Position numbers and translations under genes: made by a program
Assembly: GCF_900172275.1 (NCBI RefSeq)
Contig: NZ_FWFT01000001.1
Coordinates: 372,001-436,000 of the forward strand
From: Pseudooctadecabacter jejudonensis
GTDB lineage: Bacteria; Pseudomonadota; Alphaproteobacteria; Rhodobacterales; Rhodobacteraceae
Reading direction: 5' to 3'
DNA: 64,000 nucleotides
Part shown: positions 19,668 through 55,364 of the stretch, in pieces
How positions within the stretch are numbered: the stretch's first letter is position 1
How the letters are laid out: each line of letters starts with the position of its first letter
Notes under the pieces: model-generated
Database searches by the model: none
Seen by the model: only the letters and a program-made list of their open reading frames with translations
Told to the model about the DNA's origin: nothing

Positions 19668-20354
19668 ATGTCAGACCAACCCCACGTCTTGATTGTTGAA
19701 GATGAACCCGCCCAACGCGAAGTCCTCAGCTACAACCTTGAGGCCGAAGGGTTCCGCACCACCAAGGCAGAAGACGGCGAACAGGGCCTCTTGATGGTCG
19801 AAGAAGACGCGCCGGACGTGATTGTGCTGGATTGGATGTTGCCCAATGTGTCGGGGATTGAGGTCTGCCGCCAACTGAAAAACCGCCCCGATACGCGCAC
19901 CATCCCGATCATCATGCTGTCTGCACGTTCAGAGGAGGTCGACAAAGTCCGCGGCCTTGAAACGGGCGCCGATGATTACGTGGTCAAACCCTATGCCGTG
20001 GCCGAACTGATGGCCCGCGTGCGCACACAGCTGCGCCGCGTGCGGCCCAGCACGGTGGGGCAGGTGCTGTCCTACGACGATATTCAGCTGGATTCCGAAA
20101 CCCACCGCGTCACCCGCGCAGACACCGAATTGAAACTGGGCCCGACCGAATTCCGCCTGCTGACGACGTTCATGGAAAAACCTGGCCGGGTCTGGAGCCG
20201 TGAACAGCTTCTCGACCGTGTGTGGGGCCGTGATATTTACGTGGACACGCGCACGGTTGACGTCCACATCGGACGGCTGCGCAAAGTGCTGACCAGCACA
20301 GGTGGCGAAGACCCGGTACGGACGGTGCGCGGGGCGGGCTATGCCTTGGGGTAG
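19668..20354 (+). CDS. phoB: Phosphate regulon response regulator PhoB
   Basis: PhoB is the DNA-binding response regulator that activates phosphate-starvation genes at Pho boxes. The 228-residue protein has a receiver domain with acidic pocket VEDEPAQ, phospho-acceptor Asp55 in VLDWMLPN and Lys in VVKPYA, then an OmpR-type winged helix with the recognition-helix region YVDTRTVDVHIGRLRKVL. It closes the pst operon, two bases after phoU, and ends next to a twin hairpin element. Autoregulation through the Pho box at 14114-14142 follows from the gene order. Confidence 0.96.
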   Translation: MSDQPHVLIVEDEPAQREVLSYNLEAEGFRTTKAEDGEQGLLMVEEDAPDVIVLDWMLPNVSGIEVCRQLKNRPDTRTIPIIMLSARSEEVDKVRGLETGADDYVVKPYAVAELMARVRTQLRRVRPSTVGQVLSYDDIQLDSETHRVTRADTELKLGPTEFRLLTTFMEKPGRVWSREQLLDRVWGRDIYVDTRTVDVHIGRLRKVLTSTGGEDPVRTVRGAGYALG

Positions 20355-20400
20355 CAAAAATTCACAGAATTTTTGTGCTCAAAGTCTCGATGAGACTTTG
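20355..20400. terminator. Twin-hairpin element, copy 1 (after phoB)
   Basis: Starts on the base after the phoB stop. Hairpin 1 is CAAAAATTC-aca-GAATTTTTG at 20355-20375; a four-base gap TGCT follows; hairpin 2 is CAAAGTCTC-gat-GAGACTTTG at 20380-20400. Both stems are perfect nine-base pairs with three-base loops, each opening with CAAA and closing with TTTG. No T tract follows. It lies between convergent phoB and the putrescine permease gene, so a bidirectional 3-prime-end signal is the simplest reading. The same geometry recurs at 46138-46183. Confidence 0.7.
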
Positions 20401-20406
20401 TCCGGC

Positions 20407-21222
20407 TCACCCACCCATCGCCTTTCTTTCATCCTCACGCGCCTTCAGAGCGCTGCGTCGTGAGATCAGCGAGGCGGTGATCACGCCAAGCGTCACCAGA
20501 AGGATCATGATCGTCGACAGGGCGTTGATCTCAGGCGTGACGCCAAGGCGCACGGCTGAAAAGATCTTGATCGGCAAAGTCGTGGACGATGGGCCCGAGG
20601 TGAAAGATGCAATCACCAGATCATCAAGGGACAACGTGAATGCCAACAGCCAGCCCGATATCACCGCAGGCAGGATGATCGGCAACGTCACGGAACGGAA
20701 CGCATCAAACGGCGTGCAGCCCAGATCCAGCGCGGCCTCCTCCAACGATTGATCAAAGCTCACAAGGCGAGACGTCACGACCACACTGACGTAACACATG
20801 GCAAAGGTCGTATGGGCCAGAACAATCGTCACCACGCCGCGATCCAACCCGATGGCGATAAAGAACAACAACAGTGACAGACCAGTGATCACCTCAGGCA
20901 TGACCAGCGGCGCGTAGATCATCCCCGAAAACAACCCACGCCCGCGAAACCGCCCCGCGCGCACCATGATATAGGCCGCCATGGTGCCCAATACCGTGGC
21001 CAGCGTCGACGACCAGAAGGCCACCTTGATCGTGACCCAAGCGGCGTCCAGAAACGCCTCATTCTGCCACAACTCACCATACCACTTCGTGGAAAAGCCC
21101 GCCCAGACGGTCACCAGACGACTTTCGTTGAAGCTGTAGATGATCAAGATCAGCATCGGCAGATACAGAAACGCGAACCCAAAGGTCAGCGCCGTTGCGT
21201 TGAACCACGAAAACCGCCTCAT
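20407..21222 (-). CDS. potI: Putrescine-type ABC transporter permease (PotI/PotC-like)
   Basis: Inner-membrane permease of a polyamine importer; 271 residues with about six helices. FGFAFLYLPMLILIIYSFNESR at the N-terminus and the EAA-loop segment LEEAALDLGCTPFDAFRSVTLPIILP are characteristic of the PotC/PotI family. It is the last gene of a four-gene minus-strand operon (binding protein, ATPase, two permeases) and overlaps the preceding permease gene by four bases. Convergent with phoB. Confidence 0.87.
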   Translation of the reverse strand: MRRFSWFNATALTFGFAFLYLPMLILIIYSFNESRLVTVWAGFSTKWYGELWQNEAFLDAAWVTIKVAFWSSTLATVLGTMAAYIMVRAGRFRGRGLFSGMIYAPLVMPEVITGLSLLLFFIAIGLDRGVVTIVLAHTTFAMCYVSVVVTSRLVSFDQSLEEAALDLGCTPFDAFRSVTLPIILPAVISGWLLAFTLSLDDLVIASFTSGPSSTTLPIKIFSAVRLGVTPEINALSTIMILLVTLGVITASLISRRSALKAREDERKAMGG

Positions 21223-44184: not shown

Positions 44185-44364
44185 CGTTATCTGGAACGGG
44201 GTCGGCAGATTTTCGTCATCCGCCCTGTTGCCGAATCCCAAAAGACTGCGCATCAAAGAGATGCAGCCACGTATGGGCACCTGTCGACGGAACAAATATA
44301 GCTGTTCACAGCGCCCTGCGTGACCCCGCATTCAAAACTACATGTTTTTTCATCGGAGAATATT

Positions 44365-44601
44365 ATGAAAACATTCACAAAAACACTCGCATTCGCAGCT
44401 GTTGCTGCCGTTGCTGCCACTTCGGCCTTTGCCGGTGGTTTGGTGGAACCCGTCATGGAAATGGAACCCGTCATCGTGATGGAAGAAACAGCCGGTTCAA
44501 GCTCCAGCGCGGGCATCCTGATCCCGCTGATCCTGATCGCATTGATCGCAGCTGCCATGTCCTCCTCCTCCTCAGGCAGCGACGTCGTCGGTCTCGAATA
44601 A
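44365..44601 (+). CDS. 78-residue single-helix envelope protein, copy A
   Basis: The product has a signal peptide (MKTFTKTLAFAAVAAVAATSAFA), a short acidic part (VEPVMEMEPVIVMEE), then a helix AGILIPLILIALIAAAM bordered on both sides by four or five serines, and a short tail. CGGAG lies six bases before the ATG. Copy B at 44814-45050 has the same length and nearly the same helix. After signal cleavage it would be a very small bitopic inner-membrane protein. I know of similar short proteins in Rhodobacteraceae but no assigned function. Confidence 0.85.
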   Translation: MKTFTKTLAFAAVAAVAATSAFAGGLVEPVMEMEPVIVMEETAGSSSSAGILIPLILIALIAAAMSSSSSGSDVVGLE

Positions 44602-44629
44602 ACGACGCGACACAGCTTCAACAAACCTG

Positions 44630-44653
44630 CGCCGCTCCGCATTCGGGGCGGCG
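44630..44653 (+). terminator. Terminator-like hairpin after copy A
   Basis: CGCCGCTCC at 44630-44638 pairs with GGGGCGGCG at 44645-44653 (one T-G) around a six-base loop, followed by TTCGTCGTTT. It separates the two paralogous small genes, which suggests each has its own transcript end. Confidence 0.65.
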
Positions 44654-44813
44654 TTCGTCGTTTACGGCCAATGGGTTTTCGGCCACACCCAAAGTGTTGC
44701 CGCTTCAACACAATACAGTGCCTCAGACAGCATCACGCGCGACGATCAACTTTGACGGGCACGGTGCGCGCGCCTACGGTGTGGCCAGTCGAAACCAAAA
44801 ACCTGAGGGACTA

Positions 44814-45050
44814 ATGACTACATTCACAAAAACACTCGCACTGGCTGCGACGTTGGGCGTCGCTGCATCCGCTACATTTGCTGGCGGTTTGGCTGAACCC
44901 GTCATGGAAATGGCACCGGTCGTTGTAATGGAAGAGACAGCCGGCTCAAGCTCCAGCGCGGGCATCCTGATCCCACTGATCCTGATCGCGCTGATTGCCG
45001 CTGCGATGTCTTCCTCCTCCGGCGGTGGTGCTGATTTAGAGCCCTTATAA
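44814..45050 (+). CDS. 78-residue single-helix envelope protein, copy B
   Basis: A paralogue of the gene at 44365-44601, also 78 residues: signal peptide MTTFTKTLALAATLGVAASATFA, acidic segment AEPVMEMAPVVVMEE and the identical helix AGILIPLILIALIAAAM between serine clusters. The tails differ (GGGADLEPL here, SGSDVVGLE in copy A). GAGGG lies four bases before the ATG. The two starts are 449 bases apart, a recent tandem duplication kept with purifying selection on the helix and serines. Unknown function. Confidence 0.85.
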   Translation: MTTFTKTLALAATLGVAASATFAGGLAEPVMEMAPVVVMEETAGSSSSAGILIPLILIALIAAAMSSSSGGGADLEPL

Positions 45051-45112: not shown

Positions 45113-46132
45113 TTAGGGCTGAAACATCTGCTCCAGATCGACAGTGTCGCGTTGACCGATGTCGTTGAAATGGTCTTCCAGGAAACGGTTGGCCGCCGTC
45201 CGCCCCGCTGATTTCAACCGCGCCAGAACCACCGGGTTCGGGATCGATTTTGTGGCAACACTCAAATCGTTCATCAAGGCGTCGTCCGCAATCATGTGCA
45301 CCAGCACATTCTTCATCGCCCCTTCGGGCAGTGTGCCCTGCACCAACAACCGTTTCACAAAATTGATCGCGCGAAGTTCTCGCAGCAACGATGTATTGAA
45401 CGAGATTTCGTTGATGCGATTGGCGATGGCTTGGGCGTCCGTGGGCACTGCATCACGTTCAAGCGGGTTGATGTTGATGACCACAATATCATCGGGCAGA
45501 TGGCCTTCAAACAACGGAAACAACGCGGGGTTGCCGGTGTATCCACCGTCCCAATAGGCCTCTCCACCGATCTCAATGGCCTGAAACAAAGTGGGCAAGC
45601 AGGCCGATGCCATCAGGGCCTCACCGGTGATGTCATCGCCTTGAAACACCTTGATCTTACCGGTGCGCACATTGGTCGCCCCCACGAAAAGGTCAGGCCC
45701 CTGCGCCGAACACACATCTGCAAATTCGAATTTTTCAACGATCGTTTTCAACGGGTTACGATAAAGAGGCCCCGACATGTAAGGCGACATCATCCGTGTC
45801 GTGATGTCGAAGGCCGCATAGGCGGGCGAATAGGACATCGCTTGCGCCAACAGCGGGGCCGCAGGTGCGACGGCGTCCATCCACTGCGCAATCCCGTCGT
45901 CTGTGACCGCCCCGATCTGCGCCCAAAACCAATCAAGGTTCTCGCGCGCCCCCTCGCGGCCACCGCAGGCCCACCCCGCCTTGAGGGCCGCACCGTTCAT
46001 CGCCCCCGCAGAGGTCCCCGACATGGCTGCAATTTCGATCCGTTCGTCTTCAAGCAAACGGTCCAACACGCCCCAGGTGAACGCGCCGTGCGCACCGCCC
46101 CCCTGAAGGGCCAGATTGATCCGTTTCACCAT
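45113..46132 (-). CDS. Patatin-like phospholipase family protein
   Basis: The 339-residue protein has the oxyanion-hole motif LALQGGGAHGAFTWG, the nucleophile elbow GTSAGAMN and the catalytic aspartate in YWDGGYTGN, a complete Ser-Asp dyad. Family members hydrolyse acyl esters of lipids or of polyhydroxyalkanoate. It lies downstream of a 3-hydroxybutyrate dehydrogenase gene on the same strand, which suggests a role in polyhydroxybutyrate turnover. Its AAGGA ribosome site lies inside a perfect nine-pair hairpin just before the ATG (see 46138-46158), so translation may be controlled. Confidence 0.9.
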   Translation of the reverse strand: MVKRINLALQGGGAHGAFTWGVLDRLLEDERIEIAAMSGTSAGAMNGAALKAGWACGGREGARENLDWFWAQIGAVTDDGIAQWMDAVAPAAPLLAQAMSYSPAYAAFDITTRMMSPYMSGPLYRNPLKTIVEKFEFADVCSAQGPDLFVGATNVRTGKIKVFQGDDITGEALMASACLPTLFQAIEIGGEAYWDGGYTGNPALFPLFEGHLPDDIVVININPLERDAVPTDAQAIANRINEISFNTSLLRELRAINFVKRLLVQGTLPEGAMKNVLVHMIADDALMNDLSVATKSIPNPVVLARLKSAGRTAANRFLEDHFNDIGQRDTVDLEQMFQP

Positions 46133-46137
46133 GCGCC

Positions 46138-46184
46138 CAAATCCTTACAAAGGATTTGACACCAAAATTTTTGTAAAATTTTGG
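46138..46184. repeat. Twin-hairpin element, copy 2 (between bdhA and patatin gene)
   Basis: CAAATCCTT-aca-AAGGATTTG at 46138-46158 and CAAAATTTT-tgt-AAAATTTTG at 46163-46183 (one further C-G pair flanks it) are separated by four bases. Stem, loop and gap lengths are the same as in the element at 20355-20400 although the sequences differ. Read on the minus strand it begins seven bases after the bdhA stop, and the hairpin nearest the patatin gene includes its Shine-Dalgarno sequence. Confidence 0.75.
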
Positions 46185-46190
46185 CTCCCC

Positions 46191-46976
46191 TCACAACGCA
46201 GTCCAACCGCCATCGACGCTAATCGTGGTGCCCGTAATTTGCGCCGCCGCATCAGACGCAAGAAACACGGCCGTCCCGCCCAATTGTTCCACTGTGGCAA
46301 ATTCCTTGGACGGCTGACGTTTCAACAAGACGTCGCGCACGACCGTTTCGCGGTCCATACCATATTCCTTCATCGTGTCGGGGATCTGTTCTTCGACCAG
46401 CGGTGTCAGAACATAGCCCGGGCAAATGGCGTTGCAGGTGATCGGATCCTCAGCCGTTTCCAGCGCAACCGTCTTGGACAGGCCGACAATCCCGTGTTTG
46501 GCCGCGATATAGGCCGATTTGTAAGGTGACGCCGTCAACCCATGGGCGCTGGCGATGTTGATCACGCGGCCCCAGCCCCGTTCGCGCATGCCCGTGACAG
46601 CCGCCGCTGTGGTGTGGAATGCGGAACTGAGGTTGATGGCAATGATGGCGTCCCATTTGGCCGTCGGAAACTCTTCAATCGGGGCCACGTGCTGAATGCC
46701 GGCATTGTTGATCAGGATATCGCACCCCCCCGCCGCCACGACCAACCGACGGCAATCGTCCGCCTTGGACATGTCAGCGGCCACGTATTTGGCCTCCACC
46801 CCGAAATTCTCGGCAATCTCGGCGGCCAGCGCGTGGTCTTCGTCACGATCGGTAAAGGAGTTGAGCACAACATTGGCCCCCGCCTTCGCCATCTCCCGCG
46901 CAATGCCAAGGCCGATCCCTGAATTTGATCCTGTGATGACAGCGGTTTTTCCCGTCAGGGGTCCAGTCAGGCTCAT
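46191..46976 (-). CDS. bdhA: 3-hydroxybutyrate dehydrogenase
   Basis: This short-chain dehydrogenase interconverts 3-hydroxybutyrate and acetoacetate with NAD. The 261-residue protein has the cofactor motif TGSNSGIGLG, NNAGIQHV, the catalytic SAHG...YKSAYIAAKHG tetrad region and the family-typical CNAICPGYVLTPLVEEQIPD and RQPSKEFATVEQLGGTAVFLASD near the C-terminus. ATG at 46976 has AAGGAG eight bases ahead; the frame to 47099 is upstream sequence. The pair with the patatin gene is common in this family and points to use of polyhydroxybutyrate reserves. Confidence 0.92.
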   Translation of the reverse strand: MSLTGPLTGKTAVITGSNSGIGLGIAREMAKAGANVVLNSFTDRDEDHALAAEIAENFGVEAKYVAADMSKADDCRRLVVAAGGCDILINNAGIQHVAPIEEFPTAKWDAIIAINLSSAFHTTAAAVTGMRERGWGRVINIASAHGLTASPYKSAYIAAKHGIVGLSKTVALETAEDPITCNAICPGYVLTPLVEEQIPDTMKEYGMDRETVVRDVLLKRQPSKEFATVEQLGGTAVFLASDAAAQITGTTISVDGGWTAL

Positions 46977-54101: not shown

Positions 54102-55348
54102 CACGGTCCGCACTCGGGACGGTGCGCAAAACGGGCGCCCGCCCACGTCAACCGTTGCAGCCCTTGAGCCAAGCGGAATTTGTGGCTCTCGTGGCGATGC
54201 TTATGGCGTCGGTCGCCTTTTCGATTGATGCGATGTTGCCCGCACTTCCCGACATCGGGGCAGAATTGACGCCAGACAACCTCAATCGGGCGCAGCTGAT
54301 CATCACCAGTTTCGTATTGGGCATGGGGATTGGCACGTTTCTCACCGGCCCGTTGGCCGATCTGTTCGGGCGAAAGGCGGTCATTGTCACGGGGGCAGCC
54401 TTGTATGTCATGGCCGCCCTTTGGGCATTTGTGGCCCCCACATTGGAAACCATACTGGCCGCCCGCATCGCCATGGGGCTGGCCGCCGCGGCCCCGCGCG
54501 TGGCGGCTGTTGCTATGGTGCGCGATCTGTTCTCGGGGCGCGACATGGCGCGGATCATGTCCTTTGTGATGTTGATCTTTTCGCTGGTGCCGGCACTGGC
54601 ACCGTCTTTGGGCGCGCTGATCATCGCGGTGTCGGATTGGCGCGGGATTTTCCTGGCGTTTGCGGCGTTTTCAACACTCACATCCCTGTGGTTGATGCTG
54701 CGCCAGCCTGAAACCCTACCGGCCAAGGCCCGTCGCCCCATCAGCCTTATGTCCCTCTGGTCCGCCGCCAAAGAAACAGCGGCCCACCCGACCGTCCGTC
54801 TGGCGACCTTGGTCCAAACCCTCAGCATGGCGATGTTGTTTTCTGTCCTGTCCTCCACCCAGCAAGTGTTCGACGAAACCTACGGACAAGGCCACAGCTT
54901 TCATCTGTGGTTCGGCGGCATCGCTGTTCTGGCGTCCTCGGCCTCACTGGTGAATGCGCGGCTGGTGGGCCGATTGGGTATGCGGCCGATCATCAAGGCG
55001 ATGTTTTCGGCACAAATCGCCCTGTCCGCCGGTATGATCCTGACGGCGCTTGCAGGGCTTCCTCCGCAGGTCGAGCTGTTGATCTACGCCTTCTGGGTCA
55101 CCTCCGTTTTCTTTCAGGCGGGCCTGACGTTGGGCAACCTGAATGCATTGGCGATGGAACCCTTGGGCCACATCGCGGGCACCGCCGCGTCCCTGATCAC
55201 GGCAACAGCGACCGTAGGGGCTGTTCTGATCGCCGTCCCCATCGGACTGAGCTTTGACGGAACGCCCCTGCCTTTGGCCGCTGGCTCATTCGCTTGTGCC
55301 CTTTTGGCGTTCTGGCTCACGACCAAAATACGACGGGACAGCGACTAA
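54098..55348 (+). CDS. MFS multidrug efflux transporter (Bcr/CflA type)
   Basis: The 416-residue protein starts at GTG 54098 (GTGA overlap with the previous stop). It has 12 predicted helices, DAMLPALPDIGAEL in the first helix as in Bcr/CflA drug-resistance permeases, GPLADLFGRKAVIVTGAALYV as the loop 2-3 signature and the APALAPSLGALI motif C in helix 5 typical of exporters. It would export a small molecule by proton antiport. As last gene of the CoA-ligase operon it may remove the substrate or product of that pathway. Confidence 0.88.
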   Translation: MTRSALGTVRKTGARPRQPLQPLSQAEFVALVAMLMASVAFSIDAMLPALPDIGAELTPDNLNRAQLIITSFVLGMGIGTFLTGPLADLFGRKAVIVTGAALYVMAALWAFVAPTLETILAARIAMGLAAAAPRVAAVAMVRDLFSGRDMARIMSFVMLIFSLVPALAPSLGALIIAVSDWRGIFLAFAAFSTLTSLWLMLRQPETLPAKARRPISLMSLWSAAKETAAHPTVRLATLVQTLSMAMLFSVLSSTQQVFDETYGQGHSFHLWFGGIAVLASSASLVNARLVGRLGMRPIIKAMFSAQIALSAGMILTALAGLPPQVELLIYAFWVTSVFFQAGLTLGNLNALAMEPLGHIAGTAASLITATATVGAVLIAVPIGLSFDGTPLPLAAGSFACALLAFWLTTKIRRDSD

Positions 55349-55364
55349 ATTTCCGGAAATTTAG
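55345..55364. terminator. 20-base perfect palindrome across the MFS stop codon
   Basis: CTAAATTTCC at 55345-55354 is followed by its exact reverse complement to 55364, and includes the stop TAA at 55346-55348. It resembles the twin-hairpin elements in AT-rich stem and position at a gene end, but is single and has no loop bases. It lies between convergent genes (MFS and hemB). Confidence 0.5.

Follow-up and report, generated by a model that had tools for sequence, protein, structure and literature searches.

The window, a stretch of 64,000 nucleotides from Pseudooctadecabacter jejudonensis, contains two copies of a 46-bp twin-hairpin element, termed here A (20355-20400) and B (46138-46183), each adjoining the 3' end of a gene (Table 1). 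Element A begins at the first base past the stop codon of phoB (TAG, 20352-20354) and ends 6 nt from the stop codon of a convergent ABC transporter permease gene, the 52-bp gap between the two genes being filled by the element. Element B lies downstream of bdhA on the - strand, 7 nt past its stop codon, and the start of a gene for a patatin-like phospholipase is found 5 nt beyond it; the start of bdhA itself was assumed to be the ATG at 46976. A preliminary description made from the letters alone had recognised a common plan at the two places, and direct reading bears this out: both copies consist of a 9-3-9 hairpin, a spacer of 4 and a second 9-3-9 hairpin, and all four stems open with CAAA and close with TTTG. 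The last stem of element B reaches 10 bp (46162-46184). When folded as RNA, element A gave z values of -3.8 (+ strand) and -3.9 (- strand) and element B gave -3.1. At 44320-45050 there are two adjacent small ORFs of 93 and 118 aa which share a near-identical stretch, ETAGSSSSAGILIPLILIALIAAAMSSSS, and have the look of a tandem duplication.

Table 1. Positions in the window of the parts of elements A and B and of the flanking genes
Feature	Position	Strand	Basis
phoB, host gene of element A	19668..20354	+	TIGR02154 PhoB, 351 bits (cut-off 296)
Element A, hairpin 1, CAAAAATTC ACA GAATTTTTG	20355..20375	.	sequence and strict pattern
Element A, spacer TGCT, 4 nt	20376..20379	.	sequence
Element A, hairpin 2, CAAAGTCTC GAT GAGACTTTG	20380..20400	.	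sequence and strict pattern
ABC transporter permease gene, convergent with phoB	20407..21222	-	PF00528
Patatin-like phospholipase gene	45113..46132	-	PF01734
Element B, hairpin proximal to the patatin start, CAAATCCTT ACA AAGGATTTG on +	46138..46158	.	sequence and strict pattern
Element B, spacer ACAC, 4 nt	46159..46162	.	sequence
Element B, hairpin proximal to the bdhA stop, CAAAATTTT TGT AAAATTTTG	46163..46183	.	sequence
bdhA, 3-hydroxybutyrate dehydrogenase	46191..46976	-	TIGR01963, 367 bits (cut-off 307)

Further copies, for which the preliminary description had proposed a genome search, do exist. A strict pattern of the plan, with pairing not required, is matched at 6 places in the 3,409,092-base genome (6 forward and 6 reverse matches amount to 6 places because the pattern reads the same on both strands) and 12 out of 12 stems are perfectly paired. 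A reversed-pattern control produced 0 matches in the whole genome, and allowing the gap to range from 0 to 30 yielded no further strict-pattern places genome-wide. A 464-kb sample, made up of the window and 400 kb of the same genome, contained 36 perfect 9-bp hairpins (outer pair C-G, loop 2-4) with 7 close pairs among them, compared to 3.8 hairpins on average and 0 close pairs in 10 replicates of simulated first-order Markov sequence of the same size. A loose pattern, CAAAN{10,15}TTTGN{0,12}CAAA, was run on the genus and set aside as too permissive. Other palindromes are present in this genome (G000). A second AT-rich palindrome with a self-complementary centre, CTAAAATT-NNNN-AATTTTAG or a form one pair shorter, occurs at 55345-55364 of the window and at G000 C5:102229, 218433, 235617, 257580, 462120 and 475554, singly and mostly close to gene 3' ends, and a 23-bp palindrome, CAAACGGTCCGGTGGACCGTTTG, is found in four copies with an exact spacing of 152 bp at G000 C5:108434-108912.

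A covariance model was built on 6 copies from G000 and 4 from G294, a genome of another genus, and 79 elements were examined, of which 31 came from G000, 31 from G294, 14 from G298, 2 from G299 and 1 (of several) from G296; weaker matches in those genomes and in G145, G297, G304, G310 and G311 were excluded from this set. Elements are built from one to three copies of a unit, an AT-rich palindrome of 21 bp (9-bp stem, 3-nt loop) with a 4-nt spacer; 64 elements have two hairpins, 12 have three (all in G294) and 3 have one hairpin kept by the finder. The geometry that the preliminary description called fixed is indeed so in both window copies, but in the wider family the combination of 9-bp stem and 3-nt loop accounts for 146 of 167 hairpins and the spacer is 4 nt long in 69 of 88 cases, 3 nt in 12 and 2 nt in 7. 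In the same way the CAAA..TTTG ends hold for the four window stems, but elsewhere units with CAGA..TCTG or CAAT..ATTG ends stand beside them within one element, the unit types recognised being CAGAnTTTY, CAAAnYCTY and CAATTYCTG, plus their complements. The triples are ordered CAGA/CAGG, CAAA, CAAT, or the reverse, in 11 of 12 cases, and the twelfth has a mismatch within its CAGA unit. Loops and spacers vary freely, with 72 distinct spacers among the 88, and stem letters recur, CAGACTTTC being present in 12 of the 72 hairpins of G294. Three suggestions about these letters were rejected: a tendency for neighbouring stems not to be identical (0 identical pairs in any of the three genomes, with 0.5-2.2 expected, numbers too small for a claim), recent copying (the best pair of 57 strict twins shares 9 of 10 unpaired bases, which we estimate to be within chance for 3192 comparisons) and complementarity of the ends of the 3-nt loops (42 of 146, about one in four).

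The position of the elements relative to genes was established using our own codon-usage scorer, which misplaces starts and, at times, stops. By these calls the flanking genes are convergent at 33 of the 79 elements, codirectional at 40 and divergent at 6 (3 with an earlier version of the finder). In 73 cases one or both neighbouring genes have their 3' end towards the element, the nearest facing stop being at a median distance of 3 nt, and a called stop codon is no more than 10 nt away in 58 of the 79, including 8 in which it falls inside the element and is probably a one-side miscall. When 46-bp segments were placed at random in non-coding gaps (n=1500), 117 came within 10 nt of a facing stop and 494 were divergent. 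For G000 alone the figures were 11 convergent, 20 codirectional and 0 divergent elements, compared to 57, 120 and 66 sample gaps of at least 46 bp, and copies thus track the 3' ends of genes and not those of transcription units. Random scatter within coding sequence, one of the outcomes that had been named as counting against the element, was not seen.

Several copies lie between genes that are usually co-transcribed. Single copies are flanked by NuoJ/NuoK, HslV/HslU, SerC/SerA and FabD/FabG-type reductase genes (NuoK was assigned by PF00420; the FabD, FabG, SerC, SerA, NuoJ and HslU matches are fragments below full-length cut-offs) and the distance to the next start is 24, 17, 24 and 22 nt respectively. 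A twin is also present in the rpoB-rpoC gap of G000, G298, G128 and G087. Sixty rpoB-rpoC gaps were taken from the genus and from genomes picked for model matches; 59 were read and 49 were usable, with rpoC near and a suitable length. A script detected at least two hairpins in 19 of the 59, a figure that falls to 17 when two that owe their second hairpin to the rpoC leader are removed, and inspection by eye gave 19 twins among the 49, including two with imperfect stems, the stems varying across genera. The other gaps have one GC-rich hairpin or a short GGGC..GCCC. Of the usable gaps 28 fold at z < -2 (median -2.4), and the first predicted pair is at most 15 nt past the rpoB stop in 49 out of 49, which is a weak criterion in such GC-rich sequence. 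A hairpin of some kind directly past the rpoB stop is thus frequent among the gaps sampled, the twin being one form of it. A search with the RpoB C-terminus yielded at least 80 loci, of which the best 8 belong to close relatives, and by eye rpoB-rpoC twins were seen in Sulfitobacter sp. and one MAG and were absent in Roseobacter sp., Shimia and Celeribacter. At L270, L274, L283, L289, L290, L294, L302 and L311 inspection by eye revealed no start codon for rpoC in the expected form within ~150 nt of rpoB, and something other than rpoC may follow rpoB there.

The distribution of the element is patchy. Each genome was searched with the model on both strands at E up to 1, with 150 candidates scored. 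There were at least 70 strand-matches in G000 (about 35 places) and at least 76 in G294 and, among the matches listed for congeners, at least 33 in G298, at least 4 in G299 and 0-7 in eight others, with 0 in G295 and G309 among the candidates scored. Across 394 genomes of the family, including G000, at least 55 had a match at E 1e-4 or better (up to 15 candidates scored per genome) and 339 had none at that E under strict filters among the candidates scored; in 289 genomes of the class there was, besides G000 and G294, one weak match only (7e-5). The nuoJ-nuoK locus was recovered in 17 of 19 genomes of the genus, in 16 of which the nuoK ATG lies 2 nt past the nuoJ stop, and the twin with a 24-nt leader is found only in G000. 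The phoB locus was recovered in 20 of 41 genomes at the cut-off used and again the twin is confined to G000, with a single hairpin in G302, a long one in G002 and nothing similar by eye in other congeners. The element is therefore dispensable, as most of the family genomes searched lack a match and the twin is missing from the nuoJ-nuoK and phoB loci recovered in congeners. Flank similarity shows that 7 of the 14 elements of G298, both of those in G299, the G296 copy and 3 of the 31 in G294 occupy the same gene ends as elements of G000; at these common ends the unit types are mostly kept and pairs have changed on both sides, the G296 copy being mismatched.

An important consideration is whether the stem bases have changed in concert. 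In an alignment of 56 strict twins there were 1008 pair cells (some triples give two rows, and a middle hairpin may count twice), of which 99.6% were paired, 186 had changed on both sides and 1 was G-U. Shuffles gave a mean of 47.6 double changes and in 0 of 500 was the number as high as that observed, but two of five covariation measures did not exceed the shuffles: 11 double-change pairs against 9.8 (61/500) and 20 further pair types against 24.7 (500/500). The 1501 pairs of the 167 hairpins comprise 1489 Watson-Crick, 4 G-U, 5 A-C and 3 others. When codirectional elements were oriented by their host gene 1 of 719 pairs was G-U and 1 A-C, compared to 20 G-U in the 246 pairs of 11 tRNAs of the same genome, a rarity that has to be read with the fact that the covariance model was itself built from perfect stems; visual inspection of rpoB-rpoC hairpins from other genera (G099, G220) turned up at least two G-U pairs. 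The near absence of G-U pairs relative to tRNAs makes the complementarity unlike the product of selection for RNA stability alone, and DNA copying could yield some of the covariation even if RNA were not under selection. The earlier step from unlike stem letters to a selected structure consequently calls for caution, although pairing has been kept. The drawn hairpins were the minimum-energy structure in six of eight RNA folds, a competing fold being preferred in the nuoJ-nuoK copy (z -1.7) and in one triple. An operator read half-site by half-site by a protein dimer was rejected, stem position 5 showing all four Watson-Crick pairs and being complementary in 165 of 167 hairpins.

Both window sites are examples of a modular, REP-like palindrome dispersed in genomes of the Rhodobacteraceae, the family indicated by named RpoB relatives. 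In the wide sense the REP-like character is evident from short palindromes dispersed outside genes, at gene 3' ends and rarely in divergent gaps, and most of the elements also fall within 15 nt of a stop codon, as do some REPs (PMC12306157). There is a likeness to the GTAG and CGTC families of REPs and BIMEs as described in PMC3733652, in that these too are small dispersed palindromes (20-40 bp) occurring as singles, dimers and groups, unevenly across species, with dimers sometimes of units with unlike stems and with stems of 8-9 bp in CGTC families. However, the two units of most REP dimers stand 20-100 bp apart according to that source, compared to spacers of 4 nt and loops of 3 nt here, and the element also differs in the strong turnover of its stem letters through paired changes. 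Inspection by eye of the 30-nt flanks of the 79 elements revealed no GTAG/CGTC tag at the stem foot and no common flank, tag or tetranucleotide. The Y1/RAYT transposase (PF01797) had 0 matches in G000, G294 and G298, the three rich genomes, and 24 and 48 in the congeners G296 and G297, where the element has 7 and 1 strand-matches, and the idea of a RAYT-associated REP was accordingly rejected. Nor is it a known RNA family at the copies tested, as Rfam had no match at the elements either in the window at the gathering score or at 10 copy-bearing loci searched down to E 1; elsewhere Rfam PYLIS_3 (mttB) was matched at L003:969-1068 with 43.4 bits against a gathering score of 38 (E 6e-6). No description of this twin-hairpin element was found in the literature searched, which consisted mostly of papers outside subscription.

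Its position, together with pairing kept at core operons, argues for a role in the message just past the stop codon. The reading that we favour, at a probability of roughly 0.5, is that of a REP-like post-stop mRNA element, most likely a roadblock to 3' exonucleases or ribosomes, with stems that some process on DNA, for example template switching, keeps perfect; we infer the function from arrangement and pairing. In the mRNA the units would fold into adjoining hairpins and so form a roadblock after the stop codon. This would halt 3'-to-5' exonucleases such as PNPase and stabilise the upstream cistron and, with the hairpins inside the footprint of the terminating ribosome, termination would perhaps be slowed. 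The advantage of two units may be that one stays folded while the ribosome melts or covers the first. The near-pure Watson-Crick stems would be upheld on DNA, most likely by template switching between the arms during replication, and the lack of G-U pairs where one strand is transcribed suggests as much. There is precedent for parts of this scheme. Klug et al. in 1987 reportedly linked intercistronic hairpins of the puf operon to segmental mRNA stability in R. capsulatus, an organism which we take to belong to the same family as the carriers of the element. The puf case, as outlined in PMC8625941 for Rhodobacter, is similar in that hairpins separating co-transcribed genes reportedly affect how stable segments of the mRNA are, and differs in being a single locus. 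REPs that lie up to 15 nt from a stop codon stall E. coli ribosomes according to earlier work cited in PMC12306157. Template switching can create perfect stems in a single event (PMC8794818), and it offers a mutational route to multiple compensatory changes, but that study dealt with rRNA genes, its authors regard a role in the upkeep of short stems as less clear, and the process accounts for how perfect stems arise and not for why they do so at these gene ends. Against a roadblock it must be said that the rarity of G-U would not be expected from selection for RNA stability alone and that most of the family genomes searched have no match to the element.

A bolder version, which we regard as doubtful, is that this is a new class of element in which the twin or triple palindrome plan, and not the sequence, is kept after stop codons, with paired turnover at the DNA level that might be due to template switching or to a hairpin-copying enzyme unrelated to RAYT, and that the plan itself tunes the output of adjacent genes in core operons such as rpoB-rpoC.

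It may instead be the case, though we think it unlikely, that the element acts as a DNA palindrome that a protein (a spreading enzyme, or a nucleoid or repair protein) recognises as a folded single strand or as a cruciform, gene ends being merely the tolerated site of insertion. G-U pairs are no more frequent than A-C mismatches (4 against 5 in the 1501 pairs), the twins confined to G000 at nuoJ-nuoK and phoB look like gain as a unit, and the recurrence of stem letters such as those in G294 beside random-looking loops and spacers would follow. Of 18 four-nt loops counted in rpoB-rpoC twins 13 are self-complementary (TGCA, GTAC, GCGC, CTAG, TCGA), but in the main set of 167 hairpins this is true of 0 of 6 such loops. 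The three rich genomes moreover lack PF01797, the only transposase family searched, no common flank or tag was seen by eye, few elements lie in divergent gaps, and elements have been kept at the same gene ends across genomes while their stems changed.

Termination had been proposed as one possible role in the preliminary description, and a bidirectional intrinsic terminator of the hairpin-cluster type, ending transcription units with no U tract, is in our judgement distinctly unlikely. The remark that the element is no standard terminator for want of a T tract was correct, the consensus scan having found a terminator-like site at neither window copy. A claim based on computation and RNA-seq (PMC8355165) is that hairpins clustered at distances below 15 bases terminate transcription with poly-U dispensable, and the two adjacent hairpins described there, within 80 bases of the stop, resemble the element. 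The location of 33 of 79 copies between convergent genes, some of them filling the gap as between phoB and the permease gene, also speaks for a terminator. However, the clusters were studied at inter-operon regions, and the abstract of that paper names neither a shared sequence nor a fixed geometry. Copies of the element occur within the nuoJ-nuoK, hslV-hslU, serC-serA, fabD-fabG and rpoB-rpoC pairs and the next called start lies within 60 nt in 16 of 40 codirectional copies; a general role in termination is thus unsupported, and a full terminator is unlikely at nuoJ-nuoK, hslV-hslU, serC-serA and rpoB-rpoC in view of their operon-internal position. Some copies precede a separate GC hairpin and T run (L004, L005, L158; by eye). 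The classical intrinsic terminator was rejected on the same grounds of operon-internal copies and the scan of the window. Terminator-like sequences, for example GCCTCCGGCGGAGGTATTTTTGACCCAAAGAAG, recur downstream of elements or AT-rich palindromes at L003-L005, L018, L022, L023 and L029.

Functionless palindromes that replication template switching makes and maintains perfect in non-coding gaps would account for perfect pairing with little G-U, for unpaired bases that agree about as often as chance in the 57 strict twins and for patchy presence, but they are very improbable as they leave unexplained the recurrent 9-3-9-4 plan and stem letters, the tight post-stop position and the retention at the same gene ends across genomes.

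The 79 elements and the further matches constitute a large natural set in which one hairpin plan with varied letters is found at known gene ends, including rpoB-rpoC. This makes it testable whether hairpins after a stop codon set the product ratio of neighbouring genes in an operon, and whether perfect stems arise through G-U intermediates or by template switching on DNA, and it suggests that a REP-like element can exist without the usual transposase.

Element B has one further feature. Within the - strand 3' arm of its start-proximal hairpin is the motif AAGGA (46142-46146), 9 nt before the patatin ATG, which could be read as Shine-Dalgarno-like, and as the hairpin holds this motif the element could lower translation of the patatin gene.
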